From positions 1 to 64,000 of the forward strand of contig NZ_CVRM01000011.1 of NCBI RefSeq assembly GCF_001258055.1: DNA of 64,000 bases, read 5' to 3'. The position numbers and the translations under genes were made by a program. The notes beneath the pieces are model-generated. The model saw only the letters and a list, made by a program, of their open reading frames with translations, did not search any database and was not told the origin of the DNA. Of this stretch, positions 3,360-37,972 are shown in pieces (position 1 is the first letter of the stretch; each line of letters begins with the position of its first letter). Source of the stretch: Phaeobacter italicus. GTDB lineage: Bacteria > Pseudomonadota > Alphaproteobacteria > Rhodobacterales > Rhodobacteraceae.

Positions 3360-6406
<3,047 letters not shown>

Positions 6407-24469: not shown

Positions 24470-24544
24470 TGGAGCGGGCGAGGCGATTCGAACGCCCGAC
24501 CCTAACCTTGGCAAGGTTATGCTCTACCCCTGAGCTACGCCCGC
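24470..24544 (-). tRNA. tRNA-Gly (anticodon GCC), copy 1
   Basis: Minus strand: acceptor GCGGGCG (24538-24544) pairs with CGCCCGC (24474-24480), discriminator U, then encoded CCA (24470-24472). Anticodon loop TTGCCAA gives GCC. T arm GGGCG-TTCGAAT-CGCCT. The 8-base CCAAATGG in the leader pairs with CCATTTGG in the CCA/trailer, so the precursor can extend the acceptor stem. Confidence 0.97.
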
Positions 24545-24564
24545 GCTGCCATTTGGTGAGGTGG

Positions 24565-24593
24565 TATTTAGGAAATTGCGCTGACCCCTGCAA
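24565..24593 (-). promoter_or_regulatory. Promoter of tRNA-Gly copy 1
   Basis: TTGCAG (24588-24593), a 17-base spacer and TAAATA (24565-24570) on the minus strand. The same arrangement recurs before copies 2 and 3, which supports it. Confidence 0.75.
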
Positions 24594-24843
24594 GCGGAAA
24601 ATGACAGATTGGTGAAGAAATTTTCTGAACGGTTCTAAGGTCTTGCTGGAAACCGGATCTTGCTGCCCCGCTAAAATACCCCTGAGACAGCCCTGCGATA
24701 GTCGCGGGTCTGCAGTCGCAGGGATTGCGCGCCAGAGGCAGGCCAGATCACGCCACCGGCCACGAGACTGCCGCCAGCCCACACGGTGTGAGCGCGGCAA
24801 GGCGCGGGGGCATCTGCTGTTGAAAGTGAAGCCGGGGCAAACG

Positions 24844-24868
24844 AAAAAGGCCGCTCCGAAGAGCGGCC
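24844..24868 (-). terminator. Terminator of tRNA-Gly copy 2
   Basis: GGCCGCTC-TTCG-GAGCGGCC on the minus strand (24849-24868) followed by TTTTT. Confidence 0.88.
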
Positions 24869-24883
24869 CTTTCGCGATCCAAA

Positions 24884-24958
24884 TGGAGCGGGCGAGGCGA
24901 TTCGAACGCCCGACCCTAACCTTGGCAAGGTTATGCTCTACCCCTGAGCTACGCCCGC
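24884..24958 (-). tRNA. tRNA-Gly (anticodon GCC), copy 2
   Basis: Identical mature sequence to copy 1, with encoded CCA at 24884-24886 and the same flanking CCAAATGG/CCATTTGG pair (24963-24970, 24879-24886). It lies directly downstream of the NaeI-type endonuclease gene on the same strand. Confidence 0.97.
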
Positions 24959-24978
24959 GCTGCCATTTGGTGAGGCGG

Positions 24979-25007
24979 TATTTAGGAAATTGCGCTGACC
25001 CCTGCAA
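24979..25007 (-). promoter_or_regulatory. Promoter of tRNA-Gly copy 2
   Basis: TTGCAG (25002-25007), 17 bases, TAAATA (24979-24984) on the minus strand, as for copy 1. It begins 19 bases after the stop of the endonuclease gene. Confidence 0.75.
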
Positions 25008-25026
25008 GAGGAAAAACGCAGGAATT

Positions 25027-25938
25027 TCACTCTTCGCTGAAAAAAGTCGGATCCAGCGGATGACCGGCACTTTGGGCCAGTTTCGCCTCGCTCGCGTTGG
25101 CCGGTCGGGCCGAAATGAACTCTGACGCGCTGCAATGGGGCAGGTTCAGCGCTCGGATCAACTGCGCGTCCTTGCGCCCCTCCAGAATCAACAGCCCCTC
25201 CTTGGCGAGAATGTCGCGCGTGCCATGCCCCCCGTCCGAGCGGATGCGGCGCATGAAATCCTTTTGATGGGCCACCGCTTCGACCACATCGCGGGGGATC
25301 GGCTGGCGCTGCAATTCGCGAAACAGGGCGGCAATCCGTGCATTGCCGCTCTCGCCTTCAAAAATCCGCGCCACGGCCTGTTCCGGTGCCGTGCGCCAGA
25401 AGTTCGCGGGATAGGGGTGATCCTTCAAAAGCCAGAGAATATGGCGAAACCCCTCTGCCGAAATCGAACGCTTGGCGTCCTTGTTCTGGCCTTGGGTCAG
25501 GTAGTCGGGGCGCGCAACGATCAGGCCCAGATAACACCGCGCGCGCGGTTCATCTGCGGCAACCAGAATGCAGGGCTGATCGACCGCCTCGGTCGGGATC
25601 ATCCAGTTGCTGCCCATCGTGTGTTTGATATCGACGTCATGGCCCAGGATCACCGTGTCCAAACGCCCCTTGCGCAATCGCAGCAGCGCGCGCAGCTCGA
25701 TTTCGACCCGGGTGCCGATATAGGTCTTTTCGGTCTTTTCCAGCTCTTCATACGACCGCCGCCCGGTTTTTGCGGTCATGATCACATCATCAATGCAGTC
25801 GCGCAGCATATGCGGCACGTCATATTCCAGCGCAAGCGTCCCGCCTGCGCGCTCTGTGATTTCGCACTCCAGCTGGAAGAGCGTGCCAAAATCGGGGTGA
25901 TCGAAATCGACCAGGCTGTCCGGTAGTTTTTGTTTCAT
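25027..25938 (-). CDS. NaeI-family type II restriction endonuclease
   Basis: 303 residues, close to NaeI (317). The N-terminal half reads like the NaeI catalytic domain: EKTEKTYIGTRVEIELRALLRLRKGRLDTVILGHDVDIKHTMGSNWMIP, with E79 or E81, D94 and D103-I-K105 in the order of the NaeI active site (from memory). GQNKDAKRSISAEG and IPRDVVEAVAHQKDFMRRIRSDGG continue the match into the DNA-binding C-terminal half. NaeI cuts GCCGGC and needs a second site as effector; identical specificity here is inference. The paired methyltransferase lies 174 bases upstream on the same strand. The start is the ATG at 25936-25938. Confidence 0.82.
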   Translation of the reverse strand: MKQKLPDSLVDFDHPDFGTLFQLECEITERAGGTLALEYDVPHMLRDCIDDVIMTAKTGRRSYEELEKTEKTYIGTRVEIELRALLRLRKGRLDTVILGHDVDIKHTMGSNWMIPTEAVDQPCILVAADEPRARCYLGLIVARPDYLTQGQNKDAKRSISAEGFRHILWLLKDHPYPANFWRTAPEQAVARIFEGESGNARIAALFRELQRQPIPRDVVEAVAHQKDFMRRIRSDGGHGTRDILAKEGLLILEGRKDAQLIRALNLPHCSASEFISARPANASEAKLAQSAGHPLDPTFFSEE

Positions 25939-25968
25939 GGCAGGGCCTGCGCGGGCTGAAGCCTTGGA

Positions 25969-25992
25969 TTTGAGTATTTATGGAAAGATGAC
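25969..25992. repeat. Dispersed 24-bp element, copy 2
   Basis: Exact reverse complement of 20670-20693. It lies 31 bases before the start of the NaeI-type gene, in the gap between endonuclease and methyltransferase, where it could affect their joint or separate transcription. Confidence 0.75.
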
Positions 25993-26112
25993 GGGCGCGG
26001 TCGTTCAAGGCCGACAACCGGGTTCAAACCCGCCAGACCGGGCACAGCACGAACCGCAAAACGGCAGGGCAGGGTGGGACCGCTGGAGAGACAGGGCCGG
26101 GCCGCCGCCATC

Positions 26113-27087
26113 TCAGCCCGCGGTGCCGTTGGCTGAGACCACCTGCAGGCTGGGGCGCGCGATGGCCTGTCGGATCTGGCGGGCCACCGCCTCTGCCACC
26201 GGGGGTGGAAAGGCGTTGCCGACCTGGCGATAGGCGTTGGTCTTGGCGCCGGTGAAATGCCAGCTGTCAGGAAACCCCTGGATGCGGGCAACCATGCGCA
26301 CGGTCAGCCGGGGCATGTCGTTATGAAACGGATCGGGCGCCTCGGGCGCGATGGTGCGCCCTTCGACGCCAAGTGCCGCCCAGGCGCGTCGCGCCCGTGT
26401 TGGCCCCAGATCCGGACCGCCATGTTTCTTGGATCCACCCACGATGGTGGGGGCGATTTCATCGGCCTTGGCCGCCCAGGCCTCTGCCCCGCGCCAGCCC
26501 CGTTCCTGCATCAGATCCAGCAGCGTTTCGCCAACCGTGGGCGGGTTGTGCGGCAGCGGGTCGGGCCAGGCAAACTGACCGGAGAATTCTTTGCGCAGGG
26601 CCACGATTGCCACGCGCGGGCGCAGCTGCGGGACACCGTAGTCTGAGGCGTTCAGCAACCGCCAGTCGGTTTCATAACCCAGTTTGGCCAGCTGTTTCTT
26701 CAGCTTTTCGCGGTAGTCATGAAACACCGCGTCCAGAAAGCCGCGGACGTTTTCGATCATCACAGCCCGCGGACGGGTGGCAGCGACGATTTCAATGGCG
26801 TCATCAAACAGATTGCGCTCGTCCTTTTCGCCAAGCTGCTTGCCTGCGACGGAAAAGGGCGGGCAGGGCAGGCCGCCGGCCAAAAGATCAATCCCGTGAT
26901 AGCTGTCGGCAACGTCTTTGAACTTGCGCACGTCCTCTTCCAGCACGTTCCACTTGGGGCGGTTGTGGCGCAGGGTGGCGCAGCAATGTTTGTCGATCTC
27001 TACCAGTGCGGTGTGTTCGAAACCGGCTTTTTCCAGCCCCAGTGCCTGACCACCTGCCCCCGCGCAGAGTTCTACCGAAGTTAACAT
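26113..27087 (-). CDS. DNA (cytosine-5-)-methyltransferase of the NaeI-type system
   Basis: 324 residues. SAM motif I is ELCAGAGGQALGLEKAGF (6-23), catalytic motif IV has C75 in GGLPCPPFSVAGKQ, motif VI is ENV (112-114), motif VIII is Q154-L-R-P-R158, and motif X is KTNAYRQVGNAFPPPVAEAV. It is a complete m5C enzyme with a short target-recognition region (about 190-270). With the following endonuclease it forms a type II restriction-modification pair. It protects the host site, presumably GCCGGC. The gene begins 150 bases after tRNA-Gly copy 3 on the same strand. Confidence 0.93.
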   Translation of the reverse strand: MLTSVELCAGAGGQALGLEKAGFEHTALVEIDKHCCATLRHNRPKWNVLEEDVRKFKDVADSYHGIDLLAGGLPCPPFSVAGKQLGEKDERNLFDDAIEIVAATRPRAVMIENVRGFLDAVFHDYREKLKKQLAKLGYETDWRLLNASDYGVPQLRPRVAIVALRKEFSGQFAWPDPLPHNPPTVGETLLDLMQERGWRGAEAWAAKADEIAPTIVGGSKKHGGPDLGPTRARRAWAALGVEGRTIAPEAPDPFHNDMPRLTVRMVARIQGFPDSWHFTGAKTNAYRQVGNAFPPPVAEAVARQIRQAIARPSLQVVSANGTAG

Positions 27088-27191
27088 TTTGCCCTGTCAC
27101 CCGTCTGTCTGCGCCATGCTGGCCGTTCCTGCTCTGTTCTAGGGGCTGAAACGATTCCGCGCAAGCGGCTGCATGGGGGTTATCCACAAAC

Positions 27192-27214
27192 AAAAAAGCC
27201 GCTGACGCAGCGGC
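27192..27214 (-). terminator. Terminator of tRNA-Gly copy 3
   Basis: GCCGCTG, loop CGT, CAGCGGC on the minus strand (27198-27214) followed by six T. It separates the tRNA from the methyltransferase gene downstream. Confidence 0.88.
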
Positions 27215-27237
27215 GTCGAGCGGCTTTTTGATCCAAA

Positions 27238-27312
27238 TGGAGCGGGCGAGGCGATTCGAACGCCCGACCCTAACCTTGGCAAGGTTATGCTCTACCCCTG
27301 AGCTACGCCCGC
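27238..27312 (-). tRNA. tRNA-Gly (anticodon GCC), copy 3
   Basis: Same mature sequence as copies 1 and 2, encoded CCA at 27238-27240, flanked by CCAAATGG (27317-27324 on the minus strand) and CCATTTGG (27233-27240). The immediate flanks match copies 1 and 2, but farther sequence differs, so this copy is older or was separated when the restriction-modification genes entered. Confidence 0.97.
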
Positions 27313-37157: not shown

Positions 37158-37241
37158 CGTTTGGTCGCCCGCCGCAATTGCGGGGCCCGCAACAGCAGGG
37201 CTGCGCAGGCGGGCAATCGGGGCAAAAGCAATCAGGCAAAG

Positions 37242-37282
37242 AAAAACGGCGGCGCCCAGGGAGGAGGAGGGGCACCGCCGTT
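37242..37282 (-). ncRNA. CcsR-like small RNA hairpin 4, with terminator
   Basis: On the minus strand AACGGCGGTGCCC, loop CTCCTCCTCCCT and GGGCGCCGCCGTT (37245-37282) form a 13-bp stem with one G-U pair, followed by TTTTT. It is the last of four hairpins downstream of the DUF1127 gene that each present CCTCCTCCC in the loop, as in the CcsR (cuckoo) RNAs of Rhodobacter sphaeroides. The T-run makes it also the terminator of the whole unit. Confidence 0.82.
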
Positions 37283-37289
37283 CTTAACA

Positions 37290-37322
37290 ACACCACGCTT
37301 AAGGGAGGAGGAGGCGTGGTGT
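37290..37322 (-). ncRNA. CcsR-like small RNA hairpin 3
   Basis: ACACCACGC and GCGTGGTGT (37314-37322 and 37290-37298) form a perfect 9-bp stem on the minus strand; the 15-base loop is CTCCTCCTCCCTTAA. Between this and hairpin 2 lies an extra small stem, CCAGC/GCTGG (37331-37346), without the CCTCC motif. Confidence 0.8.
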
Positions 37323-37354
37323 ATTCGGGTCCAGCTATGACGCTGGTATTGGGT

Positions 37355-37388
37355 GCGGTGACATCAGGGAGGAGGAGGATGTCACCGC
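37355..37388 (-). ncRNA. CcsR-like small RNA hairpin 2
   Basis: GCGGTGACATC and GATGTCACCGC (37378-37388 and 37355-37365) give a perfect 11-bp stem; the 12-base loop on the minus strand is CTCCTCCTCCCT. Stem sequence is unrelated to the other hairpins while the loop is the same, the hallmark of the family. Confidence 0.82.
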
Positions 37389-37392
37389 GATG

Positions 37393-37427
37393 ACAGGCCT
37401 TCTAGGGAGGAGGAGAAGGAGGCCTGT
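37393..37427 (-). ncRNA. CcsR-like small RNA hairpin 1
   Basis: ACAGGCCT and AGGCCTGT (37420-37427 and 37393-37400) form the outer stem on the minus strand, with a further short TTC/GAA inner pairing, and the loop again shows CTCCTCCTCCC. It begins 7 bases after the stop codon of the DUF1127 gene, so it is probably processed from that mRNA. Confidence 0.8.
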
Positions 37428-37434
37428 GTCTCTA

Positions 37435-37653
37435 TTACTTGGTGCCGTAGGCCGCTTCGTAAGCGACGCTGCGCAGCTGCGCGCGGCTCATGCCGAGATC
37501 CGCGAGTTCGCGACCAGACAGCGAGGACAGCTCGTTGATGGTCTCGCGATACATGCGGTAACGCGCGATCTTGTCTTTCAGTTCGTCGAATGCGGCGCGC
37601 AGGCTGAAGGCAGCAGCGCCTTTACGGGTGGTGATATTGTCAACAGCGGCCAT
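37435..37653 (-). CDS. ccaF1: DUF1127 RNA-binding protein, CcaF1-like
   Basis: 72 residues. A short N-terminal part is followed by the DUF1127 helix pair: ARYRMYRETINELSSLSGRELADLGMSRAQLRSVAYEAAYGTK. In R. sphaeroides the equivalent protein, CcaF1, is encoded just before four CcsR RNAs, binds RNA and takes part in their maturation (known from that species). The same gene-plus-four-hairpin order here supports the name. GAGGAA lies 8 bases before the ATG. A stress (RpoH-type) promoter would be expected. Confidence 0.85.
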   Translation of the reverse strand: MAAVDNITTRKGAAAFSLRAAFDELKDKIARYRMYRETINELSSLSGRELADLGMSRAQLRSVAYEAAYGTK

Positions 37654-37972
37654 CGTTATATTCCTCGGCGGTCAGTTCGTGTGTTGCCGTCTCCGGCGTC
37701 TCTTGAGGATGAAAATAGGCAATTGCTGCACATGCACAATCCCCAGAAGCGGCAATCCGGATATGCACCAAATGCATGGGTGCCTCTGGGTAAATCAGCA
37801 GATTGCTGCTGAGGTATGCAGCAGCGGGGCTGTTAGCGCTCATTTCTTCGGCAGCGTGCGAATTGCGCGCGCTTGATGCTGGCAGATATCGTGCAATTTT
37901 GCTCATGTGGTGCACCCACTTGGGCTTTGGCGCGGGCAGGGGTATATGACAGCTGTCAAACCGGAGATGCTC
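37654..37972. other. Divergent control region between ccaF1 and apbC
   Basis: 319 bases without a gene. It holds the candidate ccaF1 promoter (37712-37739), a small hairpin GCTGCTG/CAGCAGC (37805-37825), and the GGAG ribosome binding site of apbC. Two in-frame ATGs at 37907 and 37946 upstream of apbC are possible alternative starts. Confidence 0.5.
37712..37739 (-). promoter_or_regulatory. Candidate promoter of ccaF1 and the CcsR-like RNAs
   Basis: TTGTGC (37734-37739), 16 bases, TATTTT (37712-37717) on the minus strand, with CCTATTTT resembling the C-rich -10 start of RpoH-type promoters. The start site would be about 50 bases before the ATG. Weak evidence on its own. Confidence 0.35.

Follow-up and report, generated by a model that had tools for sequence, protein, structure and literature searches.

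Background

In Rhodobacter (Cereibacter) sphaeroides, the gene of the DUF1127 protein CcaF1 (71 aa; PMC10253847) is co-transcribed with CcsR RNAs from an RpoHI/HII promoter, and the transcript is processed by RNase E (PMC10253847, PMC8625941, PMC7866481), the enzyme that frees CcsR1-4 from the ccaF1 transcript (PMC8625941, PMC7866481). The R. sphaeroides RNA RS0680a has two stem loops with the motif in each (PMC3927594). In the Rhizobiales, the cuckoo RNA NfeR1 represses ntrB via its anti-Shine-Dalgarno (aSD) loops, a repression that is lost when all three loops are mutated. The promoter of NfeR1 carries a TGCA-N6-GCAT LsrB box at -72 to -60 (PMC10746234). VtlR, for which the motif CAATGCAGCCATGCA has been published, controls AbcR2 and three DUF1127 genes (PMC12595884). 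LsrB, encoded beside trxB, has been called unique to Rhizobiales on the basis of a few species (PMC11975290). 

The window studied here is a 64,000-nt stretch of Phaeobacter italicus DNA. We read one locus on its minus strand, with a probability of about 0.8, as a CIN1-type operon in which a CcaF1-like DUF1127 gene would carry two tandem two-hairpin CcsR-type (cuckoo) sRNAs in its 3′ UTR, RNAs that would occlude Shine-Dalgarno sites. Such CIN1/cuckoo loci, of the CcaF1-CcsR kind, have been published before. The work extends a known RNA family to another genus and corrects the count from four units to two; of greater use is a testable cis-element common to most of the sampled array-linked DUF1127 genes in Rhodobacteraceae.

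Organization of the Locus

Four hairpins, each with CTCCTCCTCCC in its loop, occupy positions 37427-37242 of the minus strand. H1 (37393..37427) and H2 (37355..37388, with the stem GCGGTGACATC) are the first and second hairpins of unit 1, and H3 (37290..37322) and H4 (37242..37285) those of unit 2. Between the units lies a small linker hairpin, CCAGC/GCTGG (37331..37346), that is devoid of the loop motif. H4 also has the shape of an intrinsic terminator, and the TTTTT reported after the last hairpin is indeed present at its end (37246-37242). The exact copies of CTCCTCCTCCC, at 37415-37405, 37377-37367, 37313-37303, and 37269-37259 of the minus strand, fall within a span of at most 157 nt. The 4.05-Mb genome holds seven exact copies of this 11-mer, four of them at this locus, and the reversed-pattern control gave three. 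The predicted fold of a 211-nt stretch has an energy of -87.7 kcal/mol (z = -10.4) and leaves all four loops unpaired; an equal or greater stability was reached in none of 200 shuffles. By the exact copies and this fold, the first observation on the locus, four hairpins with the motif in the loop, is confirmed. The positions 37427, 37388, 37322, and 37282, at which four short RNAs had been predicted to end, are 5′ ends.

Directly 5′ of the hairpins, as originally described, is a DUF1127 gene (37435..37653, minus strand) encoding a CcaF1-like protein of 72 aa that matches PF06568 with an E-value of 8.2e-13 (48.3 bits versus a cut-off of 23.3). Its orthologues in six congeners are 76-85% identical to the window's protein, and in these six other genomes of the genus the four hairpins are kept behind the gene. 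The window has the short same-strand DUF1127 gene directly upstream that characterizes a CIN1 locus (PMC10253847).

Two Probable CcsR-Type Units

The Rfam model of CcsR1 (RF02791) has 83 positions and comprises two aSD hairpins. On the minus strand it matches at full length twice, at 37350..37430 (unit 1; 39.3 bits, E 1.7e-8) and at 37241..37332 (unit 2; 39.4 bits, E 1.6e-8), both below the cut-off of 65.3, and the two matches together take in all four hairpins. The ar14 model (RF02344), which has three hairpins, matches over H1-H3 with 48.1 bits and an E-value of 4e-8, below its curated cut-off of 58.8. An Rfam scan at curated thresholds returned no family at the locus, and the CcsR1 and ar14 matches appear when an E-value limit is used; at the curated cut-offs, then, the locus belongs to neither RF02791 nor RF02344. 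The CcsR1 cut-off is passed by just 10 of 295 genomes of the family. Weak Rfam matches to Streptomyces RNA 3202, 6C, and the like also fell short of their cut-offs and were set aside as C-rich look-alikes. The covariance-model search had been proposed as a check of the original prediction, and by E-value the predicted kinship with the CcsR and cuckoo RNAs is upheld, by two CcsR1 matches and one ar14 match that all lie below the cut-offs.

The same matches alter the count of RNAs. The locus is best read, from the model and the sequence, as two CcsR-type RNAs and not four, since the two-hairpin CcsR1 model matches twice at full length. Every hairpin is complete alone and has the same loop, and odd hairpin numbers occur in some arrays of relatives, features that would suit four separate single-hairpin sRNAs as had been predicted; but the CcsR1 unit covers two hairpins and matches twice, and the gaps inside units, 0-9 nt in the genus, leave little space for a cut, so that four single-hairpin sRNAs are quite improbable.

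The layout hairpin-hairpin-linker-hairpin-hairpin is found in seven of seven genus genomes, with gaps of 0-9 nt inside units, as scored by a simple matcher, and of 30-32 nt between units. Beyond the genus, gaps were compared in the window and 40 other loci (41 in all), each of the 40 from a different genome and drawn for the most part in order down the CcsR1 list, starting at its top, with some skipped. Short and long gaps alternate in 170 of 209 cases (shuffle mean 112, maximum 133, none of 5000 as high), a figure to be read with the reservation that choosing the 40 loci from the CcsR1 list favours one pair or more in each of them. In loci picked by the DUF1127 protein, a set in which the congeners are present and one locus is counted twice (L007 = L091), the alternation is much weaker, with 70 of 108 against a shuffle mean of 58.1 and 12 of 5000 shuffles as high. 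Searching the opposite strand for hairpins gave 0 in every row of this protein-picked set; the reversed-sequence control is uninformative, as the motif is nearly the same backwards and the reversed count equals or nearly equals the real one. Predicted paired units are the layout of this genus and are usual in CcsR-like arrays, without being that of every array.

Alternatively, the hairpins could form one unprocessed cuckoo RNA, like the rhizobial families with three or four hairpins, or a 3′ UTR active without being released. The three-hairpin ar14 model does fit H1-H3 (at the 48.1 bits and E 4e-8 given above), and three- and four-hairpin members have been described (PMC3927594). Against such an RNA stand the 30-32-nt linker, which has its own small hairpin in seven of seven congeners, and the RNase E processing of the R. 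sphaeroides relatives (PMC7866481). We regard it as unlikely, though less so than four single hairpins, and prefer two CcsR-type units.

Apparent Selection on Stems and Loops

In an alignment of the seven congeners, both sides have changed, with pairing kept, at 12 of 55 pairs, and 97.6% of cells are paired. Neither value is reached by any of 500 shuffles, and sliding of the partners abolishes pairing. Both-side changes occur in H1 (2 of 9 pairs), the linker hairpin (2 of 5), H3 (4 of 10), and H4 (3 of 11); the H2 stem is identical in all seven and carries no information on pairing. One of five covariation measures, that of further pair types, is not above the shuffles, being reached by 53 of 500. 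These comparisons are to be read in the knowledge that the seven sequences also supplied the structure tested on them, and that kinship among sequences alone can beat shuffles without any structure. From the alignment, stem structure also appears to be under selection, and, given the 12 of 55 both-side changes, the proposal that selection acts on the loop alone is not borne out.

Across the family, the stem word GC[GA][GA][CT][GA] is present in 137 of 290 5′ arms, versus 16.7 in shuffled arms. The stems had been called unrelated, but H2 and H4 share GCGGTG, an instance of this recurring word type. The locus agrees with the description of cuckoo RNAs (PMC3927594) in having adjacent hairpins with CCUCCUCCC in the loop and kept stems of variable sequence, H2 excepted.

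The loop itself is near-invariant, with CCTCCTCCC in 275 of 290 hairpins, a count that is partly by construction as the hairpins were found via a C/T-rich loop. Such constancy, together with the finding that CcaF1 is an RNA-binding protein with an effect on the maturation of CcsR (PMC10253847), would also be expected if the C/U-rich loops were protein-binding sites, for the DUF1127 protein for example, and not base-pairing seeds. The NfeR1 loops, however, work by pairing with the translation start region (PMC10746234), and 9 of the 41 loci have no DUF1127 ORF within 150 nt upstream, one of the nine having a single hairpin. Protein-binding sites are thus a long shot, and we retain base-pairing loops as the reading of choice.

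Distribution in the Family

Of the 295 genomes sampled from the family, 243 have CcsR1 matches with E ≤ 0.001, as does 1 of 14 control genomes. Among the 41 loci, window included, hairpins number from 1 to 14, and a DUF1127 gene lies within 150 nt upstream in 32. An array of near-identical units with a regular 113-nt period is present at positions 801-1437 of L082, suggesting, from its repeat structure, a recent tandem amplification.

The window's genome has a second CIN1-type locus, in which a DUF1127 gene (271627-271833) is followed by two aSD hairpins (G000:C22:271850-271938, or L031 2351-2439), the second of which ends T-rich. Its -35 region differs (TTGTTTG), and TGCA-N6-GCAT is present. 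For the third DUF1127 gene of this genome (G000:C31:377567-377767), the 3.5 kb examined (L034) contain the aSD word on neither strand. Elsewhere the window contains a TPP riboswitch at 6280-6402, scoring 54.4 versus a gathering score of 54.3; at 24473-27312 there are three tRNA genes that score identically.

The Control Region

Upstream of the DUF1127 gene, the minus strand carries a LysR-type box, ATGCA-N5-TGCAT, at 37763..37777, which contains TGCA-N6-GCAT with its T-N11-A; a conserved -35 region, TTGTGC-N4-GCAGCA, at 37724..37739, of which the window's genome has a single exact copy; and a putative -10 region, TATTTT, at 37712..37717, placed by its position relative to TTG. The T-N11-A box TGCA-N6-GCAT, at 37776-37763, is of the form and approximate position (about -72 to -60) of VtlR/LsrB-type boxes.

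The arrangement was followed in a pool of profile-found DUF1127 genes from L001-L030 and L051-L100, with duplicates by the last 40 codons dropped. Sixty-three of these genes, from 61 loci that include the window and six congeners, have an array, and 12 have none, an array being a crude class defined by at least two C[CT]TCCTCC within 700 nt. A 15-bp inverted repeat, ATGC[AG]-N5-[TC]GCAT, precedes the -35 of array-linked DUF1127 genes. TGC-N8-CAT followed by TTG 18-33 nt on is found before 57 of the 63 array-linked genes and 6 of the 12 array-less ones, versus 3.3 of 63 (maximum 10) in Markov controls. The spacing from box to TTG in the 57 genes is always 22 nt (21 genes) or 23 nt (36 genes), which puts the box at about -74 to -60 if the first T of TTG is -36. 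The stricter TGCA-N6-GCAT lies upstream of 48 of the 63 (Markov control mean 1.8, maximum 6). For the -35 element, TTGT[GT][CGT]-N4-GCAGC precedes 54 of 63 array-linked genes versus none of the 12 array-less genes. With pattern-fixed positions left out, the box has a pairwise identity of 0.62 and the -35 element one of 0.73, versus 0.31 and 0.30 in the flanks. All three DUF1127 genes of the window's genome have TGCA-N6-GCAT before TTGT, making up three of the seven hits in the genome (control 2). This LysR-type box at a fixed distance before the -35 of array-linked DUF1127 genes is new here.

The putative promoter of the window keeps the TTG of the -35. With numbering that is itself inferred, its -12 position is T, versus A in 36 of 57 loci, and its -9 position is T, as in 43 of 57. 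T at -12 is reported to be active with RpoHI only (PMC3441632).

An exact composite built from these loci, GCATNGCNGCATTG-N8-14-TTGTG, is present in 160 of the 295 genomes of the family, and the reversed control gave 0 among the matches listed; the composite is absent from the window's genome and from its congener in the 295-genome sample. In 48 of the 51 genomes common to both lists, the exceptions being G113, G133, and G189, the composite lies on the same strand as a CcsR match and no more than 1.5 kb upstream of it, among the matches listed (150 composite places and 98 CcsR places). The nine loci that lack a DUF1127 gene have a slightly looser form of the composite in four cases, 68-76 nt before the first motif in L072, L081, and L083 and 218 nt before it in L071, and none in five. 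The element can precede the RNAs alone, because it is present in those four loci.

The sequence TTGTGCA-N3-GCAGCA is not exclusive to DUF1127 loci, since 13 of its 20 matches (in 12 genomes) precede DUF1127. In two genomes (L122 and L128, around position 1501) it also precedes an unrelated gene of 333 aa that resembles DUF1611/DgcN. The sequence TGCTGCATGGCAGCA stands directly before a PhaC-like gene in C. sphaeroides G073 (L152, around 1501) and also in the CcsR-operon promoters of G016, G125, and G196. An operator for PhaR, the polyhydroxybutyrate repressor, was considered for TGCTGCATGGCAGCA and set aside: in many loci the conserved core differs from that palindrome, and TGCTGCATGGCAGCA is absent from the window.

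A Possible LysR-Type Regulator

The control region suggests, by its sequence, a LysR-type regulator. The published VtlR motif is a Rhizobiales motif, and the 15-mer that it describes overlaps the LysR-type box. At least 13 of 15 positions agree with the reverse complement of CAATGCAGCCATGCA before 42 of the 63 array-linked DUF1127 genes (control mean 0.1, maximum 1), versus 1 of the 12 array-less genes. At the corresponding place in the window (37753..37767, minus strand), the 15-mer has diverged to 11 of 15 positions, a level that is weak alone, as 5.7 of 63 control sequences reach it on average. The genus of the window keeps the putative box; its VtlR-like 15-mer has drifted.

No LysR family was found among 16 ORFs scanned within 1.5 kb of trxB, which was located in six of six genomes; the neighbours of trxB include Lrp/AsnC in five genomes and ATP-sulfurylase-type domains in all six (in L208, the PUA part only). 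Rfam ar15 (RF02345), used as a route to LsrB, gave an uninformative 0 of 115 genomes and likewise 0 of 14 controls. Among the literature matches listed, LsrB and CcsR were not found together, nor CcsR1 and LysR, and an earlier mention is possible.

It is tempting to propose, at about even odds, that the aSD RNAs and DUF1127 genes of Rhodobacteraceae form one ancient regulon, with a LysR-type activator that recognizes a VtlR/LsrB-like site spanning about -74 to -50. Such a regulon would predate the split of Rhizobiales and Rhodobacterales, its sites having been kept while the regulator was replaced or has gone unrecognised. If this is true, a LysR-type input would be a second, possibly redox-linked, layer over the operon that in R. 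sphaeroides is described as RpoHI/HII-driven (PMC10253847).

Proposed Mechanism and Targets

The sequence, the predicted fold, the covariation, the tandem units, and the conservation are observed at the locus itself; transcription, processing, target repression, and stress control are argued here from the relatives. A single transcript would begin some 50 nt upstream of the DUF1127 start codon and end at H4, which would double as an aSD hairpin and a terminator. RNase E would be expected to cleave the linkers, freeing the units H1+H2 and H3+H4. The stems would hold each loop open and stable, and the exposed CCUCCUCCC loops would pair with purine-rich Shine-Dalgarno sites, hindering the translation start of many mRNAs. 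By analogy with NfeR1 and CcsR1-4, it is likely that the loops cover Shine-Dalgarno sites.

The loop had been described as complementary to Shine-Dalgarno sequences, and an aSD loop is supported. Binding to the ribosome, which the original prediction had also envisaged, cannot be concluded from the sequence: given its resemblance to the aSD end of 16S rRNA, the loop would pair with mRNA and not with 16S.

The pattern GGGAGGAGG-N2-10-ATG has six sites in the window's genome (reversed control 1). One of these is the array's own antisense, and only one clearly precedes a gene, that of a short-chain dehydrogenase (L045; PF13561, E 8.1e-50). This perfect-complement search gave no convincing conserved target: the array's own antisense is the only site that the window's genome has in common with its congeners, and the sites that come up in two or three congeners are absent from the window's genome.

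Comparison with Known Systems

The cis-element resembles the site by which Rhizobiales control DUF1127 genes and aSD sRNAs. The VtlR/LsrB regulon of that order, with an AbcR RNA and three DUF1127 genes in Brucella, likewise joins DUF1127 genes and an aSD sRNA, there under one LysR-type regulator (PMC12595884). Unlike that regulon, the loci studied here have no LysR gene beside trxB in six of six genomes, and the window has 11 of 15 motif positions.

With the cuckoo RNAs of the Rhizobiales (SmelA075, SmelA099, and ar14 with NfeR1, RF02344), the locus shares adjacent hairpins, an identical loop motif, and variable stems; the TGCA-N6-GCAT LysR-type box is also present in the NfeR1 promoter (PMC10746234). 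The rhizobial RNAs are trans-encoded with three or four hairpins, and NfeR1 has a sigma-70 promoter, whereas the RNAs of the window stand behind a DUF1127 gene.

The closest relative is the CcaF1-CcsR1-4 operon of C. sphaeroides (RSP_6037, RF02791), the arrangement that the original prediction had recognized: in both, a DUF1127 gene is followed on the same strand by tandem two-hairpin CcsR-type units with CCUCCUCCC loops. The DUF1127 protein of C. sphaeroides G073, the genome with the best CcsR1 score of those sampled, has 71 aa, as CcaF1 does (PMC10253847); G073 was assigned to the species by a 3-kb plasmid match of 99.6% to 2.4.1 records, two other contig ends matching nothing. The score of the window is below the Rfam cut-off. 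The window has two units versus seven in the C. sphaeroides assembly examined, where 14 hairpins, five of the seven units being nearly the same and recurring about every 114 nt, occupy positions 1155-1896 of the reverse strand of L051; the papers count four RNAs, CcsR1-4, and a strain difference or repeats collapsed in older assemblies may explain the discrepancy. The last aSD hairpin of the window is itself the predicted terminator, whereas L051, read by eye, has a separate hairpin after the array. The -10 region of the window departs from the R. sphaeroides version; upstream, both loci have the same kind of LysR-type box and TTGTGC-N4-GCAGCA.
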